Positions 811-18,814 of a DNA stretch of 31,120 nt are shown here, piece after piece. The position numbers and the translations under genes were made by a program. The notes below the pieces were generated by a model. It did not search any database, was not told the DNA's origin, and saw only the letters and a program-made list of their open reading frames with translations. Position 1 is the stretch's first letter. Each line of letters begins with the position of its first letter. Source of the stretch: a virus; IMG/VR virus record IMGVR_UViG_3300044981_000033, positions 1 through 31,120 of that record; one strand, 5' to 3'.

Positions 811-1016
811 CCTCTCCCTTGTGAAACTCGACGAACTTGCTCCACGGGGATTGAGCTGCGCCACCCCGCGTCCCACCTGATGAAGACCATCATCCCCTTG
901 GTCGTCCGCGCCACCGCCTCGACCTTGCCGTAATGCCGGGGCTCGGACTTGTCGAATACACGCTCGCCCAGACGTAGACGTCCCGGTTGTGGATTGAGCT
1001 CGTTGGGCAGCTTCAT
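807..1016 (-). CDS. Small hypothetical protein, SH3/KOW-like
   Basis: A 69-residue protein with alternating hydrophobic strands (RLGERVFDK, YGKVEAVART, MMVFIRWDAG, SSIPVEQVRRV). The pattern suggests a small SH3-like barrel, as in KOW or Tudor folds, but no family is identified. The start at 1016 follows an AAGGAGA ribosome binding site and overlaps the SLOG gene stop by ATGA. Its own stop overlaps the KTSC gene start in the same way, so translation of the three genes is probably coupled. Confidence 0.75.
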   Translation of the reverse strand: MKLPNELNPQPGRLRLGERVFDKSEPRHYGKVEAVARTTKGMMVFIRWDAGWRSSIPVEQVRRVSQGRG

Positions 1017-1492
1017 CGTTGTCTCCTTCTCGTTCCCACTTCGATGTATGCTCCTGCTCGGGTCAGTCGGTAGGTGTGCATTCCTCCGTCAGGGTCGATG
1101 ACGATGATCTTCTTCTTCAGACTCTTGGCGTATCGGAAGGTGGCCCATGTGCCCGAGCGCAGCTGTTCATCGGCGGTCTTGGGCACCACCAGCATCAGTT
1201 CCGACGAGTCGACTATGTCTCTGTTTCTTTCCAGGTATGACTTGGGCGGCCATACTGCGTCGCCGTGGCAGAAGGCCCTGTGGTCGCCCCGGTCGGGCGG
1301 ATGCAGGATGATGGCGGGCACATGCAGCTCGCGGCATATGAGGTGGAACTGATCGTCCGCTCCGAGGCAGTCGCCGTGGTGGACGTGCTGTGGCCACAGC
1401 TTACCTATCAACCGGCGCATCGCTCTCAGCTGTTGCTGCGTGCCGCCCTTGCGCGTGCCGGTAAATCCGAGATGGTCGATGCGGTCGTCCAT
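1013..1492 (-). CDS. SLOG-fold (YspA/DUF2493-like) nucleotide-binding protein
   Basis: This 159-residue protein reads as a single Rossmann-like SLOG domain. Visible signatures are GFTGTRKG (9-16) after the first strand, HHGDCLGAD (38-46) for the glycine/aspartate loop, ERNRDIVDSS (88-97), SGTWATFRYA (113-122) and VIDPDG (131-136). SLOG proteins bind nucleotides or their derivatives; relatives include the DprA and LOG families, YspA/YpsA, and sensor domains in defence systems such as Thoeris. Substrate and role here are unknown. It starts at 1492 with an AAGGAG site and is preceded by a GC-rich hairpin (1512-1531). Its stop overlaps the next gene by ATGA. Family assignment is fairly safe; function is not. 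Confidence 0.85.
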   Translation of the reverse strand: MDDRIDHLGFTGTRKGGTQQQLRAMRRLIGKLWPQHVHHGDCLGADDQFHLICRELHVPAIILHPPDRGDHRAFCHGDAVWPPKSYLERNRDIVDSSELMLVVPKTADEQLRSGTWATFRYAKSLKKKIIVIDPDGGMHTYRLTRAGAYIEVGTRRRQR

Positions 1493-4185: not shown

Positions 4186-4877
4186 CGGTCGATCTCCTGT
4201 CTCAGCTTCACCCGGTCGCCCGCCGCCCATCCGGCGATGGTGCCGGACCCCAGCTTCTTGGGCCGGGACCTCGATACGCGCAGCGCCATCTCATTCATGA
4301 CCGACCGGTTCTCCTGGTGCAACAGGGCGAAGTGGTTGACCACCACCAGAGCTGTGGAACCCGAGAACTCCATCGCCGTCCTGTCGTCGCGCTTGACATC
4401 GGCCATGATCTTGAATGCCCGCGTCACGATCCGGCTGGCGCATGCCTGCTTGAAGGTGCGGCGGAACTCGGCTCGAGCGGCCACCGACAATCCCCTGGGC
4501 AATGCCTCCTTGTAGAACCGCTCGATCTGTTGCATCAGCCATTGCGCCGTCATCTCGGCCGCTTCGATGTTCATCGGGCGACCGATAAACTCGATGCCTG
4601 CCTTGCCGCGGTCATACATCACCAGGTCGCATCCGTATAGGACCCCGGCGGCCTGGTATGCGTCGACTTCGTATGGCCGCAGTTGTTGCATCGACCGCCT
4701 GCGGGTTGCCTTGGGCGTCTCGCCGGTGGCCGGGATGTCCTCGTGCCTGATGCCGTGCTTGGCCATCATGCCCGATGCCAGCCGCATCGCCGTGGCCGCC
4801 TCGTCCTCGGTAGCCCCCTTGTCGTTGGCTACCGCCAGTAACTTCTTGATCTTGTCAAGGATTGGATTATTTGTCAT
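4182..4877 (-). CDS. DUF2786-type protein
   Basis: This 231-residue protein is the first gene of the leftward operon. Its N-terminus (ILDKIKKLLAVAND, ATEDEAATAMRLA, MMAKHGI) is the helical DUF2786 signature: a KI-x-KLLALA helix, an E-A-x-A-A helix and a LM-x-KHGI motif. The middle and C-terminal part (strands VDAYQAAGVLYGCDLVMY and IEFIGRPMNIEAAEMTAQWLM, then a long helical region) matches the partner domain usually found with it. The family is common in phages and prophages; its function is unknown. The start at 4877 has AAAGG about 8 bases upstream, just inside the divergent promoter region. Confidence 0.88.
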   Translation of the reverse strand: MTNNPILDKIKKLLAVANDKGATEDEAATAMRLASGMMAKHGIRHEDIPATGETPKATRRRSMQQLRPYEVDAYQAAGVLYGCDLVMYDRGKAGIEFIGRPMNIEAAEMTAQWLMQQIERFYKEALPRGLSVAARAEFRRTFKQACASRIVTRAFKIMADVKRDDRTAMEFSGSTALVVVNHFALLHQENRSVMNEMALRVSRSRPKKLGSGTIAGWAAGDRVKLRQEIDR

Positions 4878-4907
4878 GGTTAACCTTTATGTGGTGGTGG
4901 ACGATGA

Positions 4908-4936
4908 ATTATGCCACACCTAAACCCTAAATGCAA
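4908..4936 (-). promoter_or_regulatory. Candidate leftward sigma70-type promoter
   Basis: Reading leftward, TTGCAT (4931-4936) is separated by exactly 17 bases from CATAAT (4908-4913). The -10 box matches 5 of 6 consensus bases, the -35 box only its TTG. Transcription would begin near 4901, about 24 bases before the start codon at 4877. A second, weaker option uses TTGACG at 4949-4954. Either would drive the leftward operon. Confidence 0.5.
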
Positions 4937-4988
4937 CCGGAGTTTTATCGTCAAATCAATAAGTTAAATGAAAAGATTGGGGTCGGGA

Positions 4989-5017
4989 TTGACAGGGGTT
5001 CGCCCATGCGCGATGAT
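4989..5017 (+). promoter_or_regulatory. Candidate rightward sigma70-type promoter
   Basis: A perfect TTGACA (4989-4994), a 17-base spacer and GATGAT (5012-5017, 4 of 6 consensus) lie 27 bases upstream of the NusG-like start codon. Transcription would start near 5024, giving a leader of about 20 bases. This is the only gap before a rightward gene that looks like a promoter region, so it is the likely origin of the long structural transcript. The near-consensus -35 suggests host sigma70-type use; this is inference. Confidence 0.55.
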
Positions 5018-5043
5018 ACGCTCCCATCGAGGGAACCTTTCCG

Positions 5044-5520
5044 ATGGGCCATTGGATCTGCGCATATACCAAGCCATCCGGCGAGCTGTGGGCCGCCGAA
5101 AATGCCCAGCTCCTGGGGTTCTCAACTTACGCCCCCGTTTATCTCGATGAACGCAAGGCCGAACGATTGCTGTTCCCCCGTTATCTTTTCATCTTCATCA
5201 AGGGAGTGTGGCAATGTCTTAAATCGACATACGGGATCGTCAAGTTGATCATGGAGGACGACCATCCTCGTCCAGTCCCAGGTCGCATCATCGACGAGCT
5301 TCGGAGCGGAGAGGACGGGGATGGTTATTTCAAGACACCAGAAAGATTTCATAGAGGGGATGAAATCCTTGTAGTGTCCGGGCCGATGTCCACACGAGAC
5401 ATTCCATTGAGAGCCAAGTTCGAGTATCGCAGTGCCCGTGACCGATGCTGGGCCCTGCTCGAGATGATGGGCGGCAAGGTGTCGGTGGAGCTATCGATAT
5501 TCGACATCGAGCCTGCATGA
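5044..5520 (+). CDS. NusG/RfaH-like transcription antitermination factor
   Basis: This 158-residue protein has an N-terminal NGN-like domain (about 3-90). It shows the opening WICAYTKP strand, the GFSTYAP turn, the LFPRYLFIFI motif (43-52) typical of NusG-family proteins, and a PRPVPGRIIDEL segment that corresponds to the VPxxII linker of the family. A KOW-like C-terminal domain (about 101-155) has FHRGDEILVVSGP and a final R-x-R-x-W-x-LLEMMG strand pair. NusG paralogues bind RNA polymerase and suppress pausing or termination. As first gene after the rightward promoter, it probably helps transcription through the long structural operon. The start at 5044 has GAGGGA 9 bases upstream. It is shorter than the roughly 180-residue host NusG. 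Confidence 0.88.
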   Translation: MGHWICAYTKPSGELWAAENAQLLGFSTYAPVYLDERKAERLLFPRYLFIFIKGVWQCLKSTYGIVKLIMEDDHPRPVPGRIIDELRSGEDGDGYFKTPERFHRGDEILVVSGPMSTRDIPLRAKFEYRSARDRCWALLEMMGGKVSVELSIFDIEPA

Positions 5521-5543
5521 CCGGATCTTATCGAGAAATGTAG

Positions 5544-5560
5544 GCGCCAAGACAAGGCGC
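5544..5560 (+). other. Hairpin immediately before TerS start
   Basis: GCGCC (5544-5548) and GGCGC (5556-5560) form a 5-bp all-GC stem with a 7-base loop (AAGACAA), extended by a possible G-T pair (5543/5561). It ends two bases before the proposed ATG at 5563 and would cover any weak ribosome binding site there. It may tune TerS expression, or it may indicate that translation starts at the ATG at 5584. Confidence 0.45.
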
Positions 5561-5562
5561 TG

Positions 5563-6243
5563 ATGGCGGAGCTAGAGAGGTGCATGCCGTATCGCAAGGG
5601 ACGTCTTCTCGACAGGAAATCATTCGTCCCGGCGGAGATATCAACTCCGCTGCAGAAGAGAAATACGTATATCCCCGAGGATCCTGAGGCCCGCCGCAAA
5701 CGTCTGGCGAAGAGCTTACCGAAACGTCTGGCGCGGCGCATCAAGAGGGGAAAGAAACCACCCCCGTCATTGCAAGGTATCAGGCGGGTTCCCAATTTCG
5801 TCAAGCAGAGGATACTGGACGCCGTGGTCCTCGGGTATCACGGCAAGGGGCTCTGCAAGAAAGCTGGCATCGGGTGGGTGCGCTTCTACAAGCTGCTTCG
5901 CATCGATCAGGATTTCGCCCGAGAATATGCCCAGGCCAAGCGGGATGCCACGGAGATAATGGAGGCCGAGATCCTTGAGATCGCCGACGATGTGAGCCAG
6001 GATCGCAAGAAGAATGGTCGGGTCAATAAGGAACATATCAACCGGGCTCGACTGCGCATCGACACGCGTAAGTGGGTCATGAAGGTTCGGGAGCCGAAGA
6101 AGTATGGCGACAAGCTGCTCAACGAATTCGGCGACGCGCCCGCCAAGGTGCAGTTCACCATGAAGTTCGACACCGCCGCCATGCGCGCCGATGAAGGCGA
6201 GGTCATCGAAGGCGAGATCGTCGACGAGACTGAGGGACCATGA
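5563..6243 (+). CDS. terS: Terminase small subunit
   Basis: This 226-residue protein would recognise the phage packaging site and load the large subunit. An extended basic N-terminus is followed by a helix-turn-helix-like segment (FVKQRILDAVVLGYHG, GLCKKAGIGWVRFYKLL). The characteristic terminase small subunit core follows: REYAQAKRDATEIMEAEIL with EIADD, then NKEHINRARLRIDTRKW and REPKKYGDKL. It ends in an acidic tail. The gene lies directly upstream of TerL and its stop overlaps the TerL start as ATGA. The start is uncertain: 5563 has only a weak AAGG partly buried in a hairpin, while 5584 has GAGAGG but only 3-4 bases of spacing. Confidence 0.88.
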   Translation: MAELERCMPYRKGRLLDRKSFVPAEISTPLQKRNTYIPEDPEARRKRLAKSLPKRLARRIKRGKKPPPSLQGIRRVPNFVKQRILDAVVLGYHGKGLCKKAGIGWVRFYKLLRIDQDFAREYAQAKRDATEIMEAEILEIADDVSQDRKKNGRVNKEHINRARLRIDTRKWVMKVREPKKYGDKLLNEFGDAPAKVQFTMKFDTAAMRADEGEVIEGEIVDETEGP

Positions 6244-8319: not shown

Positions 8320-8585
8320 TGGCTCTACACGTCTATATCCACGACTGGTGGCCTAGACGGCGTCGTGATGACGTGGTTGGAGGGGACAATCCTTTTGCTA
8401 CGGGGTCGTGGCGTGGCTCGGTGGGCGGTCCTCTCACCGGATCATGGGTCAGCGGGCTCGGGTCGGGGCTCGCTCCCATCGGCCAGAAGGAACGTGAATA
8501 CTTCACCAATACCTACGGAGAGCGCAAAGCTCCCCGAGGGTCCATCCCCGAAATCTTGATGAAGTCCCGTGGCGGCGGCTCCTAA
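8319..8585 (+). CDS. Small basic/glycine-rich hypothetical protein
   Basis: An 88-residue protein starting MALHVYIHDWWPRRRR. The opening resembles that of the gene at 7616 (MSIHIYLDYG), hinting at a shared short N-terminal strand motif. A Gly/Ser-rich middle (GSWRGSVGGPLTGSWVSG) and a C-terminus EREYFTNTYGERKAPRGS follow. It starts on the last base of the upstream TAA and overlaps the portal start by 17 bases. Probably a head-associated accessory; function unknown. Confidence 0.65.
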   Translation: MALHVYIHDWWPRRRRDDVVGGDNPFATGSWRGSVGGPLTGSWVSGLGSGLAPIGQKEREYFTNTYGERKAPRGSIPEILMKSRGGGS

Positions 8586-10632
8586 GGCATCGTCGGCTCC
8601 CAAGCCGCGCATCCGGGTCCGGGTCGGCGACTCGTATGAGAATTTCGCCGCCCGCCTTGGCATCGGATCGGAGAACTACGCCACCCAGTCGACTTACGGG
8701 TTCAACCCGATCACCAGAGTCCGCGTCCTGCTCGAGTGGATGTATCGCGGATCGTGGCTGGTGGGCAAGGCTGTGGACTGCATCCCGCAGGACATGTGCA
8801 AGCGGGGCATCAAGTTCCTCGGCATTCAAGACCTCAAAAAAATCGAGACGCTTAAGCACGGCATGCGCAAGTATGGCCTGTGGCAGAGTGTGATGATGAC
8901 TCTGACATGGGCGCGTCTGTATGGCGGGGCCATCTGCGTCATGATGATCAAGGGCCAGGACGTGTCGACGCCGCTGCGCGTCGAGACGGTGAGCAAGGGA
9001 CAGCTCCAGGGGTTCCTCGTTCTCGACCGGTGGATGATCGAGCCATCGCTCGAGGATCTGGTCACCGACATGGACGACGCGGATCTGGGCAAGCCGCGGT
9101 TCTACACCATCACCGCCGACGCCCCGGCCCTGCCTCGACTGCGTGTTCACCACTCGCGCGTCATGAGGTTTGTCGGCGTCGAGTTGCCTTACTGGCAGAT
9201 GATCGCCGAGAACATGTGGGGCATGTCTGTTCTCGAAAGGTTGTATGATCGCCTGGTGGCGTTCGACTCGGCCACCCAGGGCGCGTCGCAGTTGATGTAT
9301 CGCGCCGACATCCGCACATACTCGGTCGAGGGACTGAGAAAAATCATCGCCGCTGGAGGTCCGGCATTCGATGCGCTCATCTCGCAGATCAAGCATAACT
9401 CTCTATGGCAAGCTAATGAACGGATGTTCGTTATTGACTCTACTGATAAGTTTGAACGCCAGCAATACGCGTTCACGGGCATCAGCGACACGATCCTCCA
9501 GTTCGGCCAACAGATCTCAGGTGCCATCGACATCCCGCTGACTCGTCTGTTCGGCCAGAGCCCCGCTGGGATGAACGCCACCGGCGAGTCCGACCTGGTG
9601 ACATACTACGACGGCATCTTGCAACGGCAGGAAATCGATCTGCGTCCGAGACTGGGGAAACCGTTGCGCGTCATCGCTCGGGCAGAGGGTGTGGATGATG
9701 AAGGGGTGTCCGACTTCAACTTCTTGCCGTTGTGGCAACTGACCGAGGAGGAGAAGTCGACGGTGGCCGAGAAGATCACCGCCTTGGCTATCGCCGCGGT
9801 CGAGTCGGGCATCATATCCGAGAAGACGGCGCTCAAGGAACTCAGGGCGCAATCGTCGATCACCGGCGTCTGGACGCAGATCACCGACGAAGACATCGAC
9901 AACGCCGATGATCAGAGACCGCCATCGCAGGCCGAAGTGGCCAAGCAGATGCAGGAACAACTCGAGAAGGAACCCGAACCCGGTGAGGTGGAACCTGGGG
10001 AGCCGGGTGGGGAAGGTAAGCCCCCTGGGGAGAAACCACCGCCTGGATCACCACCCGTTGAGAAGGCTAATCCCATCCACCTGGCGATCACCCGAGGAGC
10101 TGGCGACAGGGCGGTTCACTCTCAACGCCAGTTTCAAGGTATCCCCATTGTTATTGAGACTCCCAAGAACGGATGGCGTAGAGGGTTTGGGTGGGAGTCA
10201 AAGATGCCCGGCGACTACGGTTACATCGAGAACACCGGGTCGACCGAGGGCGTGTATGAAGGAATAGATGTGTTGGTCGGTCCCGACGCTGGTGCGCCTG
10301 ATGTCTGGATCGCCGATCTGTATCGACCCGACGGCAAGTTTGATGAGCACAAAGTGTTGCTCGGGTGGCCGACCGAGAAGGTGGCCAACGCGGCACTGCG
10401 CGCGTGCTACGACAAGCAGAATTGGCGGGAACCACTGGCTCACCTGACGGTGGAGCAATTCAAGACGTGGTTGTCGTCCGGTGATTTGATGTCGCCCATC
10501 TCTGGTCGACCAGGATCTACTCTGCCCGGCCAGGGCTCGTCGACTCAAGGTGCCGTCGGTGAGGTTCTCGTCGGCGGCACCCGCGTTCAGACTAAGCGGG
10601 TGAGGACGTTCATGCCGAAGAGGGTCAACTGA
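8569..10632 (+). CDS. Portal protein (DUF1073 type) with C-terminal InPase domain
   Basis: Residues 1 to about 450 are a DUF1073-type portal: RVLLEWMYRGSWLVGKAVD, YGGAICVMMI, the VLDRWMIEP segment, HHSRVMRF and RLFGQSPAGMNATGESD, followed by YYD and the Q-containing helix. A Pro/Gly/Glu-rich linker (about 455-500) leads to a second domain (about 505-640) resembling the InPase (inorganic pyrophosphatase-like) domain of phage polyvalent proteins: GIPIVIETPKNG, MPGDYGYIENTG (546-557), GIDVLVGP (565-572), FDEHKVLLGWP (591-601) and a closing FKTWL. Compared with cellular pyrophosphatases, the DGDPxD acidic cluster seems only partly kept (E564, D567). On related portals this position can hold the Acb1 anti-CBASS domain. 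The start is GTG at 8569 with a weak binding site. Confidence 0.92.
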   Translation: MAAAPKASSAPKPRIRVRVGDSYENFAARLGIGSENYATQSTYGFNPITRVRVLLEWMYRGSWLVGKAVDCIPQDMCKRGIKFLGIQDLKKIETLKHGMRKYGLWQSVMMTLTWARLYGGAICVMMIKGQDVSTPLRVETVSKGQLQGFLVLDRWMIEPSLEDLVTDMDDADLGKPRFYTITADAPALPRLRVHHSRVMRFVGVELPYWQMIAENMWGMSVLERLYDRLVAFDSATQGASQLMYRADIRTYSVEGLRKIIAAGGPAFDALISQIKHNSLWQANERMFVIDSTDKFERQQYAFTGISDTILQFGQQISGAIDIPLTRLFGQSPAGMNATGESDLVTYYDGILQRQEIDLRPRLGKPLRVIARAEGVDDEGVSDFNFLPLWQLTEEEKSTVAEKITALAIAAVESGIISEKTALKELRAQSSITGVWTQITDEDIDNADDQRPPSQAEVAKQMQEQLEKEPEPGEVEPGEPGGEGKPPGEKPPPGSPPVEKANPIHLAITRGAGDRAVHSQRQFQGIPIVIETPKNGWRRGFGWESKMPGDYGYIENTGSTEGVYEGIDVLVGPDAGAPDVWIADLYRPDGKFDEHKVLLGWPTEKVANAALRACYDKQNWREPLAHLTVEQFKTWLSSGDLMSPISGRPGSTLPGQGSSTQGAVGEVLVGGTRVQTKRVRTFMPKRVN

Positions 10633-10970
10633 TGGCCAGCGTGACGCCGATCAAACCTCCGACGCCGGGGCTGCGCATCGTTCCTGTGACGGCCACCACG
10701 CACAACACCTGGACGGTCGACACGGTTGACCTGATCCTCGTGGGCATGACCAATCGTGGTCCCTTCTCGATATTCAACTATGGTCCAGGCATCGTGTGGT
10801 GTAGCTGGCGTGACGACATGCAAGCCACCGTCGGTGACCCGAACTCCCTGAAGCTGGTGCCCAACATGGGGTATAACTGGGAGGGAGAGACATTGGCGGG
10901 TCAGAACCGGAAGCTGACGATCGTATCAGACACCGATGGCACCACAGTGGTGACGGTGGCTGGAGGTTGA
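10632..10970 (+). CDS. Hypothetical beta-rich protein, fibre-associated
   Basis: A 112-residue protein predicted to be almost entirely beta strand (NTWTVDTVDLILVGM, FSIFNYGPGIVWCSW, KLTIVSDTDGTTVVTV), with an N-terminal Pro-rich stretch. It lies between the portal and the first fibre gene and overlaps both by a few bases. The pattern resembles small phage head-surface or fibre-attachment domains (a sandwich fold with 'noisy' surface loops), but I recognise no family. It could be a head decoration or a fibre adaptor. Confidence 0.7.
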   Translation: MASVTPIKPPTPGLRIVPVTATTHNTWTVDTVDLILVGMTNRGPFSIFNYGPGIVWCSWRDDMQATVGDPNSLKLVPNMGYNWEGETLAGQNRKLTIVSDTDGTTVVTVAGG

Positions 10971-12625
10971 CGATGGGATTTATAGCAGGAACTAGTACCC
11001 GCACCACTGGAGGCACGGTGCCGCCAGGCGGCAATGTCGGTAGTGTTCTCGTCAAGAGATCACTGAACAACTTCGACATGGCATGGGACGATGTGCTGCC
11101 GCAGACGGTGGCAGACCTGCTGGTGACGGTGAGCAGTAAGGTCGACAAGTCTGGTGATCAGATGACCGGCGATCTGAGATGGCCCGGACTGACAGGCATT
11201 GGTGCCTTGGTCAATCGTAGCCAAGTCCGCGTCGATGATGGCACCGATGCGAGCGTGATGACCAGCACCGCGATATATGCCAACATGCTGCAGACGCCGT
11301 CTGATGTCGGTGGACTTGCTTTCGGCACGAACTTCTCCGAAGGTGGTATCTACAAGTCGCTCGGCACGGGTGTAGTGATACGTCAGTCGTCCGATGACTC
11401 GCGTGTCAGGGTAGAATTGAACGACGGTCTTGCTGGGTGGTCGATCATCGACCAGCGCGGCGGCTCACTGGTCGGCCCTTTGTCCATGGGAAATAACTAC
11501 ATCGCTGGTTTGCTCGATCCCAGTTCACCCCAGGATGCGGCGACCAAGGCTTATGTGGATGCCAATGCCGATGCTACCACCAGGGTGCTGAAAACTGGCG
11601 ACACCATGACTGGCGCTCTTACAGTTGTCAGTATAGTGACTGCCGATGGATTTAACTGTCCCGTTGACAATTCGGGTTATGGTTTCTATAGTGGCGGATT
11701 ACTTTACAAGAAAGGAGGCGCTGGCCTCGTAGTCCGATTGTCGAGCGGCAACCAGGAGCTACAGATCGAGAATAACAACGGCACCAATGCACGCAATGTG
11801 CTGACCAACTTGACCGGTGTGCAAAAGACCGGCGACTCGATGACCGGCAACTTGAACTTCCCCAACGTCGGGCAAGGCTTGACACTGGCTGGCGGCACGG
11901 CGTTCTACACCACTACATCGGGAAACCTGGGGATCAATGCCGGAACGCTCTCGGTGAACGGCGCGCTGACGGTTACCAGCAATGCGCAGATCAATGGCAG
12001 CTTTAGCGCGAACGGCGGCACCATGGGTAACAATGGGGGTCTTCGCACGTTGGGCCAAGGCTCGAACAACGTCGTCAATAACGGGATGAGCCTATGTGGC
12101 TCCGACGGTTGGCAGCATGTGTTATTTCGTGACACGCGGTCGGGTTTCTTCATCAATCCAGAAGCCAACTTGTTTATCCACGTTTCTTGCGGTGGATACG
12201 GCATGCAACAACTGATGCGGACCAACATTGGAGCACCGCCATCGGCGACCTTCAATGGCAATGTCAGCGCAGCTCAGTTCCTCACTGTTTCAGATAGCGA
12301 TCTGAAGGACGAGATCACGCCGGTCGATCCTGTTGGTGCTAGTGAGGCGTTGGATCAATTGCAGCCGGTGCGCTTCAAGTGGAAGCCGATAGAGATTACT
12401 GATCCGGAGACGGGTGTCAAGCGCATGGTGCCGCGCAGTGACGCGGATCGGGTTTACTGGGGCTTCGTTGCCGACGACATCAAGGAGATTGTGCCAGAGG
12501 CCGTCTACGAAGATGCCGAGGGAATGCTGTCATACGACCCGGTATCGATCATCGCAGTCACGGTGTCGCAGTTGCAGACGCTCAAGCAGGATGTTGCCCA
12601 ACTGAAATCGAGGAGGTCCCCGTGA
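10967..12625 (+). CDS. Tail fibre protein 1 with S74 self-cleaving chaperone
   Basis: A 552-residue fibre. Three TGDxMTG repeats, typical of phage fibres, start near residues 61, 209 and 287. The common fibre phrase SPQDAATKAYVDA occurs between the first two. A GGxxYK-x-G-x-VVIR module occurs twice. The C-terminal S74 intramolecular chaperone begins at TVSDSDLKDEI, giving the expected Ser442/Lys447 dyad, and continues through FKWKP, YWGFVADDIKEIVPEAV and YDPVSIIAVTV to a coiled-coil end. The chaperone trims itself off after fibre trimerisation. The start at 10967 overlaps the previous stop as ATGA. It is paralogous to fibre 2. Confidence 0.93.
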   Translation: MTMGFIAGTSTRTTGGTVPPGGNVGSVLVKRSLNNFDMAWDDVLPQTVADLLVTVSSKVDKSGDQMTGDLRWPGLTGIGALVNRSQVRVDDGTDASVMTSTAIYANMLQTPSDVGGLAFGTNFSEGGIYKSLGTGVVIRQSSDDSRVRVELNDGLAGWSIIDQRGGSLVGPLSMGNNYIAGLLDPSSPQDAATKAYVDANADATTRVLKTGDTMTGALTVVSIVTADGFNCPVDNSGYGFYSGGLLYKKGGAGLVVRLSSGNQELQIENNNGTNARNVLTNLTGVQKTGDSMTGNLNFPNVGQGLTLAGGTAFYTTTSGNLGINAGTLSVNGALTVTSNAQINGSFSANGGTMGNNGGLRTLGQGSNNVVNNGMSLCGSDGWQHVLFRDTRSGFFINPEANLFIHVSCGGYGMQQLMRTNIGAPPSATFNGNVSAAQFLTVSDSDLKDEITPVDPVGASEALDQLQPVRFKWKPIEITDPETGVKRMVPRSDADRVYWGFVADDIKEIVPEAVYEDAEGMLSYDPVSIIAVTVSQLQTLKQDVAQLKSRRSP

Positions 12626-12948
12626 GGCAGATACCGCTGCGCAACATCAAGATGGTCGACAAGCCGAACTTGGATTATAGGTTGGCGTTCATCGCCATCG
12701 TCACCAACGCCCCTGCTGAAGGGATGACGGTCAAGGAGATGGCTCCGGCATTGTCGGTTAAGAGGGCTCTCGATAATGCCGCCAACGATGACCATGTGCT
12801 CCTCGAGGAAGCTGATTGGCAATATCTGTCGCGTCGGTTGCAGGAGAACAAGTTTCCGTTCGCCAGCGAGGAAATCGCCGACATGGTATCTTCGGTGGTC
12901 GACGCTCCACAGGTGAACGTGGCCATCGCCAAGGGTAAGGCTGCGTAA
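12622..12948 (+). CDS. Small protein between fibre genes
   Basis: A 108-residue protein starting at GTG 12622, with GAGGAGG 5 bases upstream; the GTG overlaps the fibre 1 stop (GTGA). The N-terminus (QIPLRNIKMVDKPNLDYRLAFIAIV) is followed by helices (VKEMAPALSVKRALDNA, EADWQYLSRRLQ, SEEIADMVSSVVDA). A small helical protein beside fibre genes could be a fibre assembly chaperone or a tail-base protein. I cannot assign a family. It starts the pattern fibre, small protein, fibre. Confidence 0.75.
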   Translation: MRQIPLRNIKMVDKPNLDYRLAFIAIVTNAPAEGMTVKEMAPALSVKRALDNAANDDHVLLEEADWQYLSRRLQENKFPFASEEIADMVSSVVDAPQVNVAIAKGKAA

Positions 12949-14570
12949 TGGGCTTCGTCGTCGGATCGCTGGGCACTCCAGGCGCAGCGGGCGCGGACGT
13001 ATTCACCAGCCTGGTGGCCGACTTCACCATGCCAGCCGCTGGTGCTGTGGCCACGGTGGAACTATACGACGCGCGGGGGTTCCCTCCGGGGCTCATCGCA
13101 TTTGTCGAGAACGCTGGATACGTGATGGTGGTCAGGCGAGATCTGAACACTGACCAGATCGATGTGCGCAATCTTGGATACGAGATCAATCGGCCGCCTG
13201 GCACTGTCGCTCCGACCGACTCCGAGATCGTCGGATCAGGACCGCAAGGCATTCCAGGCACCGCCGGATGGACAATCCTGGCTCACGATTATGTCATGGA
13301 TGCCGTCGGGGTGCAGAACGCGGCTGCGGTGCGGAGCAACGATGGATTTGCCATCGGCGTCACTATCTACATCGAGACGCTGGGGTACTTCCGTCTCGAA
13401 AACCGCATCGGCACCGATCTGCTGGTGCTGAGCAACACTGGGGCGCGCGGTAATGCTTCTCCGGGAACCATCGCACCTATCGACACTATCGTCCAGGCGG
13501 CGGGCATTCCTCTGAGCGGATACTACGCTGGCGGATCGGTCGGCGAGCCATTGGTCAAGCAAAGTGGCGTCGACTTCGATACGCGATGGGGCGGCAATAT
13601 CACTGTGGCTACCATCAGTGCGGATGGTCTTATTTGCAGGAATGATGGTCAAGGTATAGATTTCTTCGGTGGGTCATGGCTACGCAAGGTGACTGGCGTC
13701 AACATGGTGATCCGCACCAACGGCTTTCAGATCGAGAACCTCGACGCGTCCAATCGGCGTAGCATCATCGACACGACGAACGGCGACGCTCGCTATGTGG
13801 CCAGGTCCGGTAGCACCATGACCGGTCAACTGACGATAAACAACGCACAGCTACAGCTACGCGCAGCGGACAATAACAATGGCACCTACACACAAGCCCT
13901 CAATTTCACCGATGCGTCGGGCAATGGGATCGCTTGGATGCGCGGCTATATCGCCGGTCGAAATGGCCCTCCGGAAGGTCAATTCGAGCTGTGGACCAAC
14001 AACGGAGGCTGGAGCAGTCAGCGGGTGATGTGGACTGATACCAACCCGCCGCCGAACGTCTATTTTGGCGGTACTGTCTACTCGCGCGGCGCGGCGTTGA
14101 TCTCGGACAGTGATCTGAAGGAGGATATTACGCCGGTCGATCCCGAACGGGCTGGACAGGCTTTCGATCTCCTTGCGCCGGTGCGGTTCAAGTGGAAACC
14201 CCAAGAGATTGATGATCCACTGGCAGTCGGGGGCCGGAGATCAATGGCGCTCAAGGAACCGGATCGGGTCTACTGGGGGTTCGTCGCCGACGACATCCAA
14301 GCTATTGTTCCCGATGCCGTTTACGAGACCGACGAAGGATTGCTGGCATACGATCCGACTTCAATCCTGGCGGTGACGGTGACCAAGGTGCAACAACTCG
14401 ACGGTGAGATGAGGGCCGTTCCCCAGTTTTGCCAGGATCTGATCACTCAGGCGATGAGACCTCTGGTGGATGTGAAGAGGTCGGTGGCCGCGTTGGAGAG
14501 ACGCGTCAAGACGATTGAGACTCGAGAGATCGATGCGCTGCAGAAGCGTATCGACGAGTTGAAGCGATGA
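12948..14570 (+). CDS. Tail fibre protein 2 with S74 self-cleaving chaperone
   Basis: A 540-residue fibre. The N-terminal 190 residues hold two diverged copies of one unit (about 20-102 and 107-190), each with a strand pair around (A/M)FVENAGYVMVVRRDL or IETLGYFRLENRI and ending PGT(V/I)AP-x-D. A collagen-like GPQGIPGTAG joins them. A TMTGQL repeat and an IEN-ending module match those of fibre 1. The S74 domain starts at LISDSDLKEDI (Ser386, Lys391) and has the same FKWKP and YWGFVADDI phrases as fibre 1. Unlike fibre 1 it ends in a long coiled coil (VAALERRVKTIETREIDALQ). The start at 12948 overlaps the previous TAA. Confidence 0.92.
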   Translation: MGFVVGSLGTPGAAGADVFTSLVADFTMPAAGAVATVELYDARGFPPGLIAFVENAGYVMVVRRDLNTDQIDVRNLGYEINRPPGTVAPTDSEIVGSGPQGIPGTAGWTILAHDYVMDAVGVQNAAAVRSNDGFAIGVTIYIETLGYFRLENRIGTDLLVLSNTGARGNASPGTIAPIDTIVQAAGIPLSGYYAGGSVGEPLVKQSGVDFDTRWGGNITVATISADGLICRNDGQGIDFFGGSWLRKVTGVNMVIRTNGFQIENLDASNRRSIIDTTNGDARYVARSGSTMTGQLTINNAQLQLRAADNNNGTYTQALNFTDASGNGIAWMRGYIAGRNGPPEGQFELWTNNGGWSSQRVMWTDTNPPPNVYFGGTVYSRGAALISDSDLKEDITPVDPERAGQAFDLLAPVRFKWKPQEIDDPLAVGGRRSMALKEPDRVYWGFVADDIQAIVPDAVYETDEGLLAYDPTSILAVTVTKVQQLDGEMRAVPQFCQDLITQAMRPLVDVKRSVAALERRVKTIETREIDALQKRIDELKR

Positions 14571-17155: not shown

Positions 17156-18814
17156 ATGGCCTGGCGTATTCTCGACCGGGTAAGATTTACCACCCCTACG
17201 GCGGGCACGGGCAGCGCCGCCGTGGGTGCTGCCCTGATGGGATTTCAAACTCCAGCGCAAGCTGGAGCTGCCAATGGTGACACCTTCGATTATGTCATCG
17301 AGGACATGGGCGGGGCATGGGAGATTGGGGAAGGAACGTATTCATCGGCACCGGCCTTAGTTCGCACCACGATCATCGGTAGCAGCAACGCCGGGGCGGC
17401 GATCAACTTGTCAGGATCTGCCGTTTGCACCATGACGCTGCCCACTTGGTCCACGGTGAGTCCCAGGGCCCTAGCCGGTCACATCGGCGGCCTCGCATTG
17501 ACGCCGGACGCTGCCAACGGTGTTCTCGACATTGCCGTGGGCTCGGCTACGTCGGACGACGGCGTTGCCGTGATGGCTCTGCAGACAGCGTTCACCAAGA
17601 GCCTCAATGCCGTCTGGGCATCAGGCACGGGCGTGGGCGGTCTGGACACTGGCGCGGCGGTGTCTGGCACGGCATATTACGTCTATCTCATCGGACCGTC
17701 GCTGTATTCCAACCAGACCCTGCAACCCGATATCTTGTTCTCGTTGTCGGCGACGGCTCCGGCGATGCCATCCAACTATACGCGTAAGAAGCTCATTGGA
17801 TCGGTGAGGTTCCTGGGGGCAGCGGCATTGGATGTGGCCCAGAGCCCCGGAAAATTTGGTTCTCTCTCCTGCCACTCCAACATTCCATCAACACCATCAT
17901 TCCAGGCTGATACCTATAGCTTTGTGGGTGGTGGTCTTACCACTTCTACATTTGCTTATCTTGCAGACAACTGCTATTTTGATGTAACTCTTGGTAATTA
18001 TAGGATTGCCGCTACACGTAGCGATGGTGCAGCGGTTCTTGGTGTCAACGCCACAGTCCTTTCGTATTCGCCTCAGGCTGGCGCTGTGACTGCTGGAAAT
18101 ACCTGGTCGGGAACCAGTTACAATGTCTGGACCACACGCGATTTTCCGACGGCACCAGTCTTAATAGCCGGCAGTACGATGACGGGTCAGCTTACCATGA
18201 GCGGCCAGGCCATCGTCACCAACAACGGCTTCTATGCAAATGGTGCCGGATCGGCCATGGCCAATGTTACGACTGCGAACGGAGCTCCCAGCGCAGGGTG
18301 GTCGGCGGCTTTCGGATGCTGGGCGACGGCATCTGGCGTCGGTTATGCCGGGTGGGGGCGCTCCGATAGCACCAGCGCCTATCTTTGGTATTTCTCGGCG
18401 GGAGGCACCAACGTCGGCAATATCTATACCCAGGGATCAACTACAGCTTACAATACGACGTGCGACAGGAGTCTGAAGGAGAACATCCGAGATCTCGATG
18501 ACGACATCGACGTAGGTGAACTCATCGACAGCATGAGGCCGGTCGCATTCGAGTGGAAAGCTCCATCACCTCAGTTTGATGTCGTTGCCCAGACTAGGTC
18601 ATCAAACACCGGACACGGCTTCATAGCCCAGGAGCTGTTTGACGTGGCTCCCCAAGCGGTTACACCCCCGTTGCCAGATCCACCCGGCAAGAAAGCTGCA
18701 GATCAGGGGCCTCACTTGTGGGGGGCCGACTACTCCAAGCTGATCCCATACCTGGTCTCTGAGCTTCAGTCATTACGTAAGCGCGTTGCCGAACTCGAGA
18801 GCCAGCTACCGTAA
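17156..18814 (+). CDS. Tail fibre protein 3 with variant S74 chaperone
   Basis: A 552-residue fibre. The N-terminal 100 residues are a common phage module: TAGTGSAAVGAALMGFQT, NGDTFDYVIED, WEIGEGTY, LVRTTIIGSSNAGAAINL. A middle of glycine- and serine-rich beta segments includes a STMTGQLT repeat. The C-terminal S74 chaperone reads TCDRSLKENIRDL, MRPVAFEWK, GHGFIAQELFDVAPQAV, YSKLIPYLVSELQSLRKR and a coiled coil. The residue five before the catalytic Lys441 is Cys436 where Ser is expected. The segment near 17870-18010 is visibly AT-richer than its surroundings. The start at 17156 follows the previous TGA by one base. Confidence 0.92.
   Translation: MAWRILDRVRFTTPTAGTGSAAVGAALMGFQTPAQAGAANGDTFDYVIEDMGGAWEIGEGTYSSAPALVRTTIIGSSNAGAAINLSGSAVCTMTLPTWSTVSPRALAGHIGGLALTPDAANGVLDIAVGSATSDDGVAVMALQTAFTKSLNAVWASGTGVGGLDTGAAVSGTAYYVYLIGPSLYSNQTLQPDILFSLSATAPAMPSNYTRKKLIGSVRFLGAAALDVAQSPGKFGSLSCHSNIPSTPSFQADTYSFVGGGLTTSTFAYLADNCYFDVTLGNYRIAATRSDGAAVLGVNATVLSYSPQAGAVTAGNTWSGTSYNVWTTRDFPTAPVLIAGSTMTGQLTMSGQAIVTNNGFYANGAGSAMANVTTANGAPSAGWSAAFGCWATASGVGYAGWGRSDSTSAYLWYFSAGGTNVGNIYTQGSTTAYNTTCDRSLKENIRDLDDDIDVGELIDSMRPVAFEWKAPSPQFDVVAQTRSSNTGHGFIAQELFDVAPQAVTPPLPDPPGKKAADQGPHLWGADYSKLIPYLVSELQSLRKRVAELESQLP

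Follow-up and report, generated by a model that had tools for sequence, protein, structure and literature searches.

Why a phage portal protein should carry a pyrophosphatase-like domain at its C-terminus, and whether that domain is a regular part of the portal or an exchangeable cargo, is the question raised by the locus described here. The window, by which we mean the whole 31,120-nucleotide stretch of viral DNA that was analyzed (IMG/VR record IMGVR_UViG_3300044981_000033), contains an open reading frame at 8569–10632 (+) that begins with GTG and encodes 687 amino acids. It lies in a contiguous head module comprised of a small terminase (PF20901), the large terminase, the portal, a MuF-like protein, a DUF2213 protein, a cement-like protein, and the capsid, and its product is a portal protein (PHROG 146) with both a PF06381 core and a C-terminal PF18823 InPase domain. 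The core (residues 56–404; 8734–9780, +) is a clear member of PF06381, also named DUF1073 or Phage_portal_3 (Pfam E 7e-102; 341 bits versus a cut-off of 33.8). Further along the protein are a Pro/Gly/Glu-rich linker (residues ~455–518; 9931–10122, +), an InPase domain of OB-fold type (residues ~519–645; approximately 10123–10503, +), and a C-terminal tail of low predicted order (10504–10629, +; pLDDT 49–63). A preliminary description of this DNA had assigned an InPase to 10066–10632 based upon the phrases GIPIVIETP, MPGDYGYI, GIDVLVGP, and FDEHKVLLGW. All four occur in the frame where they had been reported and the interval does contain the domain, although it also includes the end of the linker as well as the low-confidence tail of approximately 40 residues. 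The domain is unlikely to be translated on its own: the linker of the window has no ATG, the sole in-frame ATG/GTG/TTG between residue 472 and the domain is a poor GTG (GAG-GTG-GAA), and an internal start is not conserved among 65 InPase portals, of which 54 possess an ATG in frame close to the linker but just 22 possess one accompanied by a Shine-Dalgarno-like site.

The identification as an InPase is upheld by profile search and structure prediction, both of which the preliminary description had proposed. Pfam matches residues 519–635 to PF18823 (phage InPase) over positions 13–134 of its 135-position profile, and an E value of 3e-22 with 79 bits, roughly three times the cut-off of 26.8, implies that the assignment is not due to chance. 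AlphaFold (AF2), supplied with 53 unaltered homologues, yielded a confident model of the trimmed domain (pLDDT 94, pTM 0.88), and the 34 top Foldseek matches of this model in the PDB were all pyrophosphatases (best E 1.4e-3, probability 1.00, TMq ~0.35–0.52), placing the domain within the family I fold. An untrimmed 188-aa model, which retained the disordered ends, had no significant PDB match; as trimming these ends resolved the discrepancy, the trimmed result is preferred. HH profile-profile alignment of the InPase against a set of cellular family I pyrophosphatases (n=10, from bacterial genomes) gave a probability of 93.6% (E 2e-7), while a search of the PDB with a profile built from 85 InPases recovered cellular pyrophosphatases (E 0.002). 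When the single domain was used as the query of a PDB sequence search, the sole match was Pa193 gp19, the InPase region of which is without density. Thus, the window domain is a phage-type InPase having the pyrophosphatase family I fold minus the cellular beta-hairpin, which corresponds to ~15 cellular residues between the E20 and Y55 equivalents that have no counterpart in the HH alignment. Its likeness to the cellular enzyme, such as E. coli Ppa (PF00719), extends to the fold and to equivalents of E20, Y55, D70, and probably K104. Unlike Ppa, the window portal has no Pfam match to PF00719 at E ≤ 1, glutamates plus an insert stand in for D65 and D67, and the C-terminal PPi-binding Y141/K142 region of Ppa is not aligned with it. 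Likewise, Pfam detects no PF23474 (Acb1) in the window portal, this domain being present in relatives only.

The active site region of the domain departs from the classic pattern in an orderly manner. In the HH alignment, E530 (10156–10158, +) is the equivalent of E. coli E20 and Y550 aligns with Y55, whereas the acidic cluster DGDxxD is replaced by E560-G-V-Y-E564-G-I-D567 (10246–10269, +), in which E560, E564, and D567 align with D65, D67, and D70 and V562 and Y563 constitute a two-residue insert. The preliminary description had considered this cluster to be only partly kept (E564 and D567), which does not hold, as E560 also falls on the triad and the pattern is a conserved variant. The form S[AT]EGxxExxD was present in 20 sampled copies and in a 21st (L126) having Q in the middle, all of which are fused to portals of the broader branch that includes the window, whereas polyvalent, stand-alone, and Pbunavirus/Wifcevirus-type portal copies have DGDxxD or small departures from it. 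Conservation of the motif is partly circular, since the variant and classic groups were defined by the motif itself; however, neither the two-residue insert nor position 558, which is serine in 20/20 variant copies and glycine in 61/61 classic copies, was used in that definition. Position 530 is glutamate in 19/20 variant and 61/61 classic copies. Further downstream, the FDEHK motif (D592-E593-H594-K595; 10342–10353, +) contains E593 and K595, which by motif spacing probably correspond to D102 and K104. These two residues together with R537, Y550, G551, and D567 are invariant across 85 diverse InPase copies and the window retains every one. Because E-x3-E-x2-D is conserved in 21 copies, the window InPase is better classed as a variant subtype than as a canonical member, and its putative metal site is re-set, not partly lost.

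Comparisons with close relatives address both the maintenance of the domain and its dispensability. The closely related portal of L002 likewise carries an InPase domain according to Pfam, and between the window and L002 the domain is 79.5% identical versus 93.4% for the portal core. The corresponding dN/dS values are 0.18 for the domain, 0.07 for the core, 0.31 for the linker, and 1.4 for the C-terminal tail (37 codons). Given the value of 0.18 and the near-invariant residues, all of which are kept in both the window and L002, the window domain is maintained under purifying selection. The portal of L003 has a core 87% identical to that of the window, yet it terminates just before the InPase position. 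Its last residues are ...PLRLSIIRGNS, at the place of ...PIHLAITRGAGD... in the window, and the next gene begins 12 bp past its stop codon. Pfam shows only the portal domain in this protein and no InPase remnant was found in the L003 contig. This rules out the InPase as an ordinary conserved part of all such portals, the outcome that would have undone the preliminary description. L003 may have lost the domain, or the lineage of the window may have gained it. L013, which among cousins without an InPase is second only to L003 in closeness to the window, has a free-standing gene for topoisomerase IB after its portal (4853–5908).

A broader view of this C-terminal position was obtained by collecting PF06381 portals with four seed alignments and reducing them to 266 non-redundant proteins, thereby providing the listing of C-terminal domains that the preliminary description had called for. 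No domain was found in 120 of these tails, while the others contained InPase (65), Acb1 (62), Nudix (7), PBECR1 (1), or other sequences (11), a mixture that is biased and not a census, as InPase and Acb1 portals served as seeds. When seeded by the portal type of the window alone (n=73), the sample included 67 portals with no domain, 4 with InPase, 1 with PBECR1, and 1 other. Acb1 (PF23474) was confirmed by Pfam at the same position in PF06381 portals of Rhizobium and Pseudomonas phages, as the preliminary description had stated, and Nudix and PBECR1 tails were confirmed in further members. The slot occupants look active, since two HxT/S motifs occur in 62/62 Acb1 tails and an intact Nudix box occurs in 7/7 Nudix tails (L352, L355, L328, L323, L338, L321, and L317). 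L428 (762–2780) encodes an Acb1 portal (PF23474, E 1e-19) within the InPase-rich, Pbunavirus/Wifcevirus-like clade A5 and is a direct swap of InPase and Acb1 inside one portal clade. On a FastTree phylogeny of 142 portal cores, the InPase label requires 16 changes, at least 11 of which are forced by well-supported (starred) branches, and all labels together require 26; the use of FastTree and thin sampling make exact counts unsafe. The results nonetheless support a tail that changes often, a conclusion that is independent of the exact count, as well as a slot that is exchangeable and occupied mostly by phosphate-bond hydrolases, much as the preliminary description had supposed. Missed frameshifts were rejected as an explanation for the tail-less portals, as a relative of a slot domain was located nearby in just 8/120 loci; in five of these the relative is a separate stretch of Acb1 or Nudix sequence, while the rest match extra tail domains beyond InPase. 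Nudix-like stretches occur 0.8–1.9 kb downstream of the tail-less portals of L055, L057, L353, and L449.

Several relatives extend further still. Stop-to-stop frames in L410 (2387–6127; 1247 aa) and L416 (2267–5434; 1056 aa) encode a portal, an InPase, and an ADP-ribosyltransferase (PF03496) in that order, whereas in L412 (2405–5722) and L426 (2066–5527) the third element is a topoisomerase IB core (PF01028). These four are polyvalent proteins having the portal as their base, and a portal role for the ADP-ribosyltransferase and topoisomerase IB extensions is not obvious. Disparate activities are thus fused in a single virion protein both in the window (portal and InPase) and in these relatives. 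Two other kinds of C-terminal extension were encountered. L087 (949–3045) and L073 (212–1870) end in a short cysteine cluster, CGxCEYF...C...C, once following an InPase and matching no Pfam family, and the portal of L452 (2177–5413) has a 576-residue extension with a P-loop and a weak likeness to zeta toxin (PF06414, E 5e-4, below the cut-off).

Portal-fused InPases and the thought that they act upon nucleotide signals both have precedents. Iyer et al. (2017; PMC5512222) characterized the InPase family as being without the cellular hairpin and recorded an InPase fused to the portal of Burkholderia phage BcepF1, as well as portals with a fused 2H or PBECR domain; they proposed that InPase attacks infection-induced nucleotides or clears PPi and suggested its packaging in virions. 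Hobbs et al. (2022; PMC9117128) demonstrated that Acb1 degrades CBASS cyclic nucleotides, the family member T4 57B having a tested anti-CBASS activity; their article never uses the word "portal". Fusions of Nudix and ADP-ribosyltransferase domains to head proteins were noted in a 2022 survey (PMC9503650). New here, unless reported earlier, are the variant triad, the presence versus absence of the domain in the closely related portals of the window and L003, the alternation of InPase and Acb1 within one clade, and the InPase-ADP-ribosyltransferase and InPase-topoisomerase IB portals. The window domain shares PF18823, the missing hairpin, and a portal fusion with the polyvalent and BcepF1 InPases, but it has E-x3-E-x2-D rather than DGDxxD and belongs to a clade found exclusively on portals; in addition, the majority of members of its PF06381 portal branch are without InPase. 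The Pbunavirus/Wifcevirus portals (E217, Pa193 gp19, and phage Mansfield) similarly pair a PF06381-type portal with a C-terminal InPase, although theirs is of the classic DGDxxD form, has a longer linker, and belongs to a separate clade. The Acb1 portals of Rhizobium phages RHEph04 and RHph_TM3_3_3 and Pseudomonas phage MR15 share the PF06381 portal, the linker, and a small C-terminal hydrolase, which in their case is a 2H phosphodiesterase (PF23474) of unrelated fold that acts on phosphodiesters. In the InPase tree, which is based upon 140 columns only and leaves the inner order unsure, the window copy falls within a set of 30 copies exclusive to A1/A4-type portals (99*), whereas the Pbunavirus/Wifcevirus-type copies form another clade (97*) nested among polyvalent InPases. 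The simplest reading of these two clades is two separate captures by portals. InPase and core distances are correlated overall (Mantel r 0.56), versus r 0.10 for pairs with a core distance >0.35, a pattern compatible both with swapping and with ancient inheritance followed by losses.

The explanation we favor, at a likelihood slightly short of even, is that the InPase tail serves counter-defense or nucleotide control, a theme common to other slot occupants such as Acb1 and Nudix. The portal would be a chassis that bears an exchangeable enzyme domain at its C-terminus via a flexible linker, and this end would point into the head, as in the solved E217 and Pa193 relatives. The window InPase would be a divergent, metal-dependent phosphoanhydride hydrolase, predicted to be active, whose substrate would most likely be a pyrophosphate-containing nucleotide (a defense signal, such as a derivative of ADP-ribose or NAD) or PPi in the infected cell. 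Catalysis, substrate, and anti-defense role are all inferred, with the domain being most likely active; to our knowledge, no activity has been reported for any portal-fused InPase, and replacement of the DGDxxD triad by a two-glutamate form could have altered or abolished catalysis. Because portals remain in the phage head, delivery by the virion would require proteolytic release inside the head followed by entry with the DNA; alternatively, the InPase could work at a late stage of infection within the cell that makes the virions, scaled to the amount of portal. The latter would be the simpler route, since it needs no release step. T4 Alt is an injected protein, and by analogy the ADP-ribosyltransferase and topoisomerase fusions would favor the release-and-entry route. 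Counting against our preferred explanation, the InPase region has no model in two virion structures: of a 765-residue portal of the InPase-carrying kind, residues 97–528 were built for E217 (PMC10329688) and residues 94–528 for Pa193, whose authors report no density for 529–765 (PMC11042391). The Pa193 authors leave a pyrophosphatase undiscussed, the word having zero occurrences in PMC11042391. Absence of the domain from most close relatives would fit an accessory function and points to no particular target. In a more ambitious form, which we consider doubtful, the PF06381 portal C-terminus would be a dedicated swappable dock for counter-defense enzymes (Acb1, Nudix, InPase, PBECR, and ADP-ribosyltransferase) and the E-x3-E-x2-D InPase would be re-tuned to destroy a pyrophosphate-linked immune nucleotide, not PPi. 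If the tail is a cargo mount, portal tails would be a cheap hunting ground for new counter-defense enzymes, any conserved domain therein being a candidate, and would offer a direct test of enzyme delivery by structural proteins. The E-x3-E-x2-D InPase would itself be a defined enzyme, and its substrate could bring to light an immune nucleotide to which no phage countermeasure has so far been linked.

Other explanations fare less well. It is unlikely that the domain simply hydrolyzes pyrophosphate from phage replication or transcription without any role in defense, even though it shares its fold and the majority of its conserved residues with enzymes that hydrolyze PPi. The hosts own a PPase (10/10 genomes tested), packaging motors release Pi rather than PPi, the triad is altered, and the swaps with Acb1, Nudix, and PBECR1 would be left unexplained. 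Iyer et al. (PMC5512222) had already listed PPi clearance as an option. Also improbable, and somewhat more so, is a non-catalytic structural or binding domain in which the PPase fold would bind metal, polyphosphate, or DNA in the head, for instance to tune packaging or portal-barrel dynamics. The altered triad, the location in the head lumen, and the E217 portal barrel, which folds only around packaged DNA (PMC10329688), could all be accommodated in this way, yet catalytic-type residues are invariant in 85 divergent copies, the domain is cleanly missing from the L003 portal, and the slot is shared with enzymes whose folds are unrelated and whose active sites are intact. Avs defense systems recognize portal proteins (PMC11249213) and tails of unrelated folds do alternate, from which one could suppose that bulky exchangeable tails hinder this recognition irrespective of activity; such shielding seems quite improbable, given that active sites are strongly conserved in all tail types, most related portals have short tails only, and a flexible linker separates the tail from the portal. 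Least probable of all is a decaying passenger with no present function in the window phage, since the faster divergence of the domain relative to the core, its absence from L003, and a copy in L079 degraded at its N-terminal side are outweighed by the low dN/dS and the full set of near-invariant residues.

Lastly, a few other features of the window are worth recording. A 159-aa protein encoded at 1013–1492 (-) has a weak likeness to DprA/SLOG nucleotide-binding proteins (PF02481, E 0.004; PF12694, E 0.04; both below the cut-offs). Three tail fiber-like ORFs of the S74 (endosialidase chaperone) type, at 10967–12625, 12948–14570, and 17156–18814, are located among the portal, MuF, and capsid genes, which is an unusual position. 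The C-terminal parts of the first two are 35–36% identical, and L002 encodes a single mosaic relative of both.
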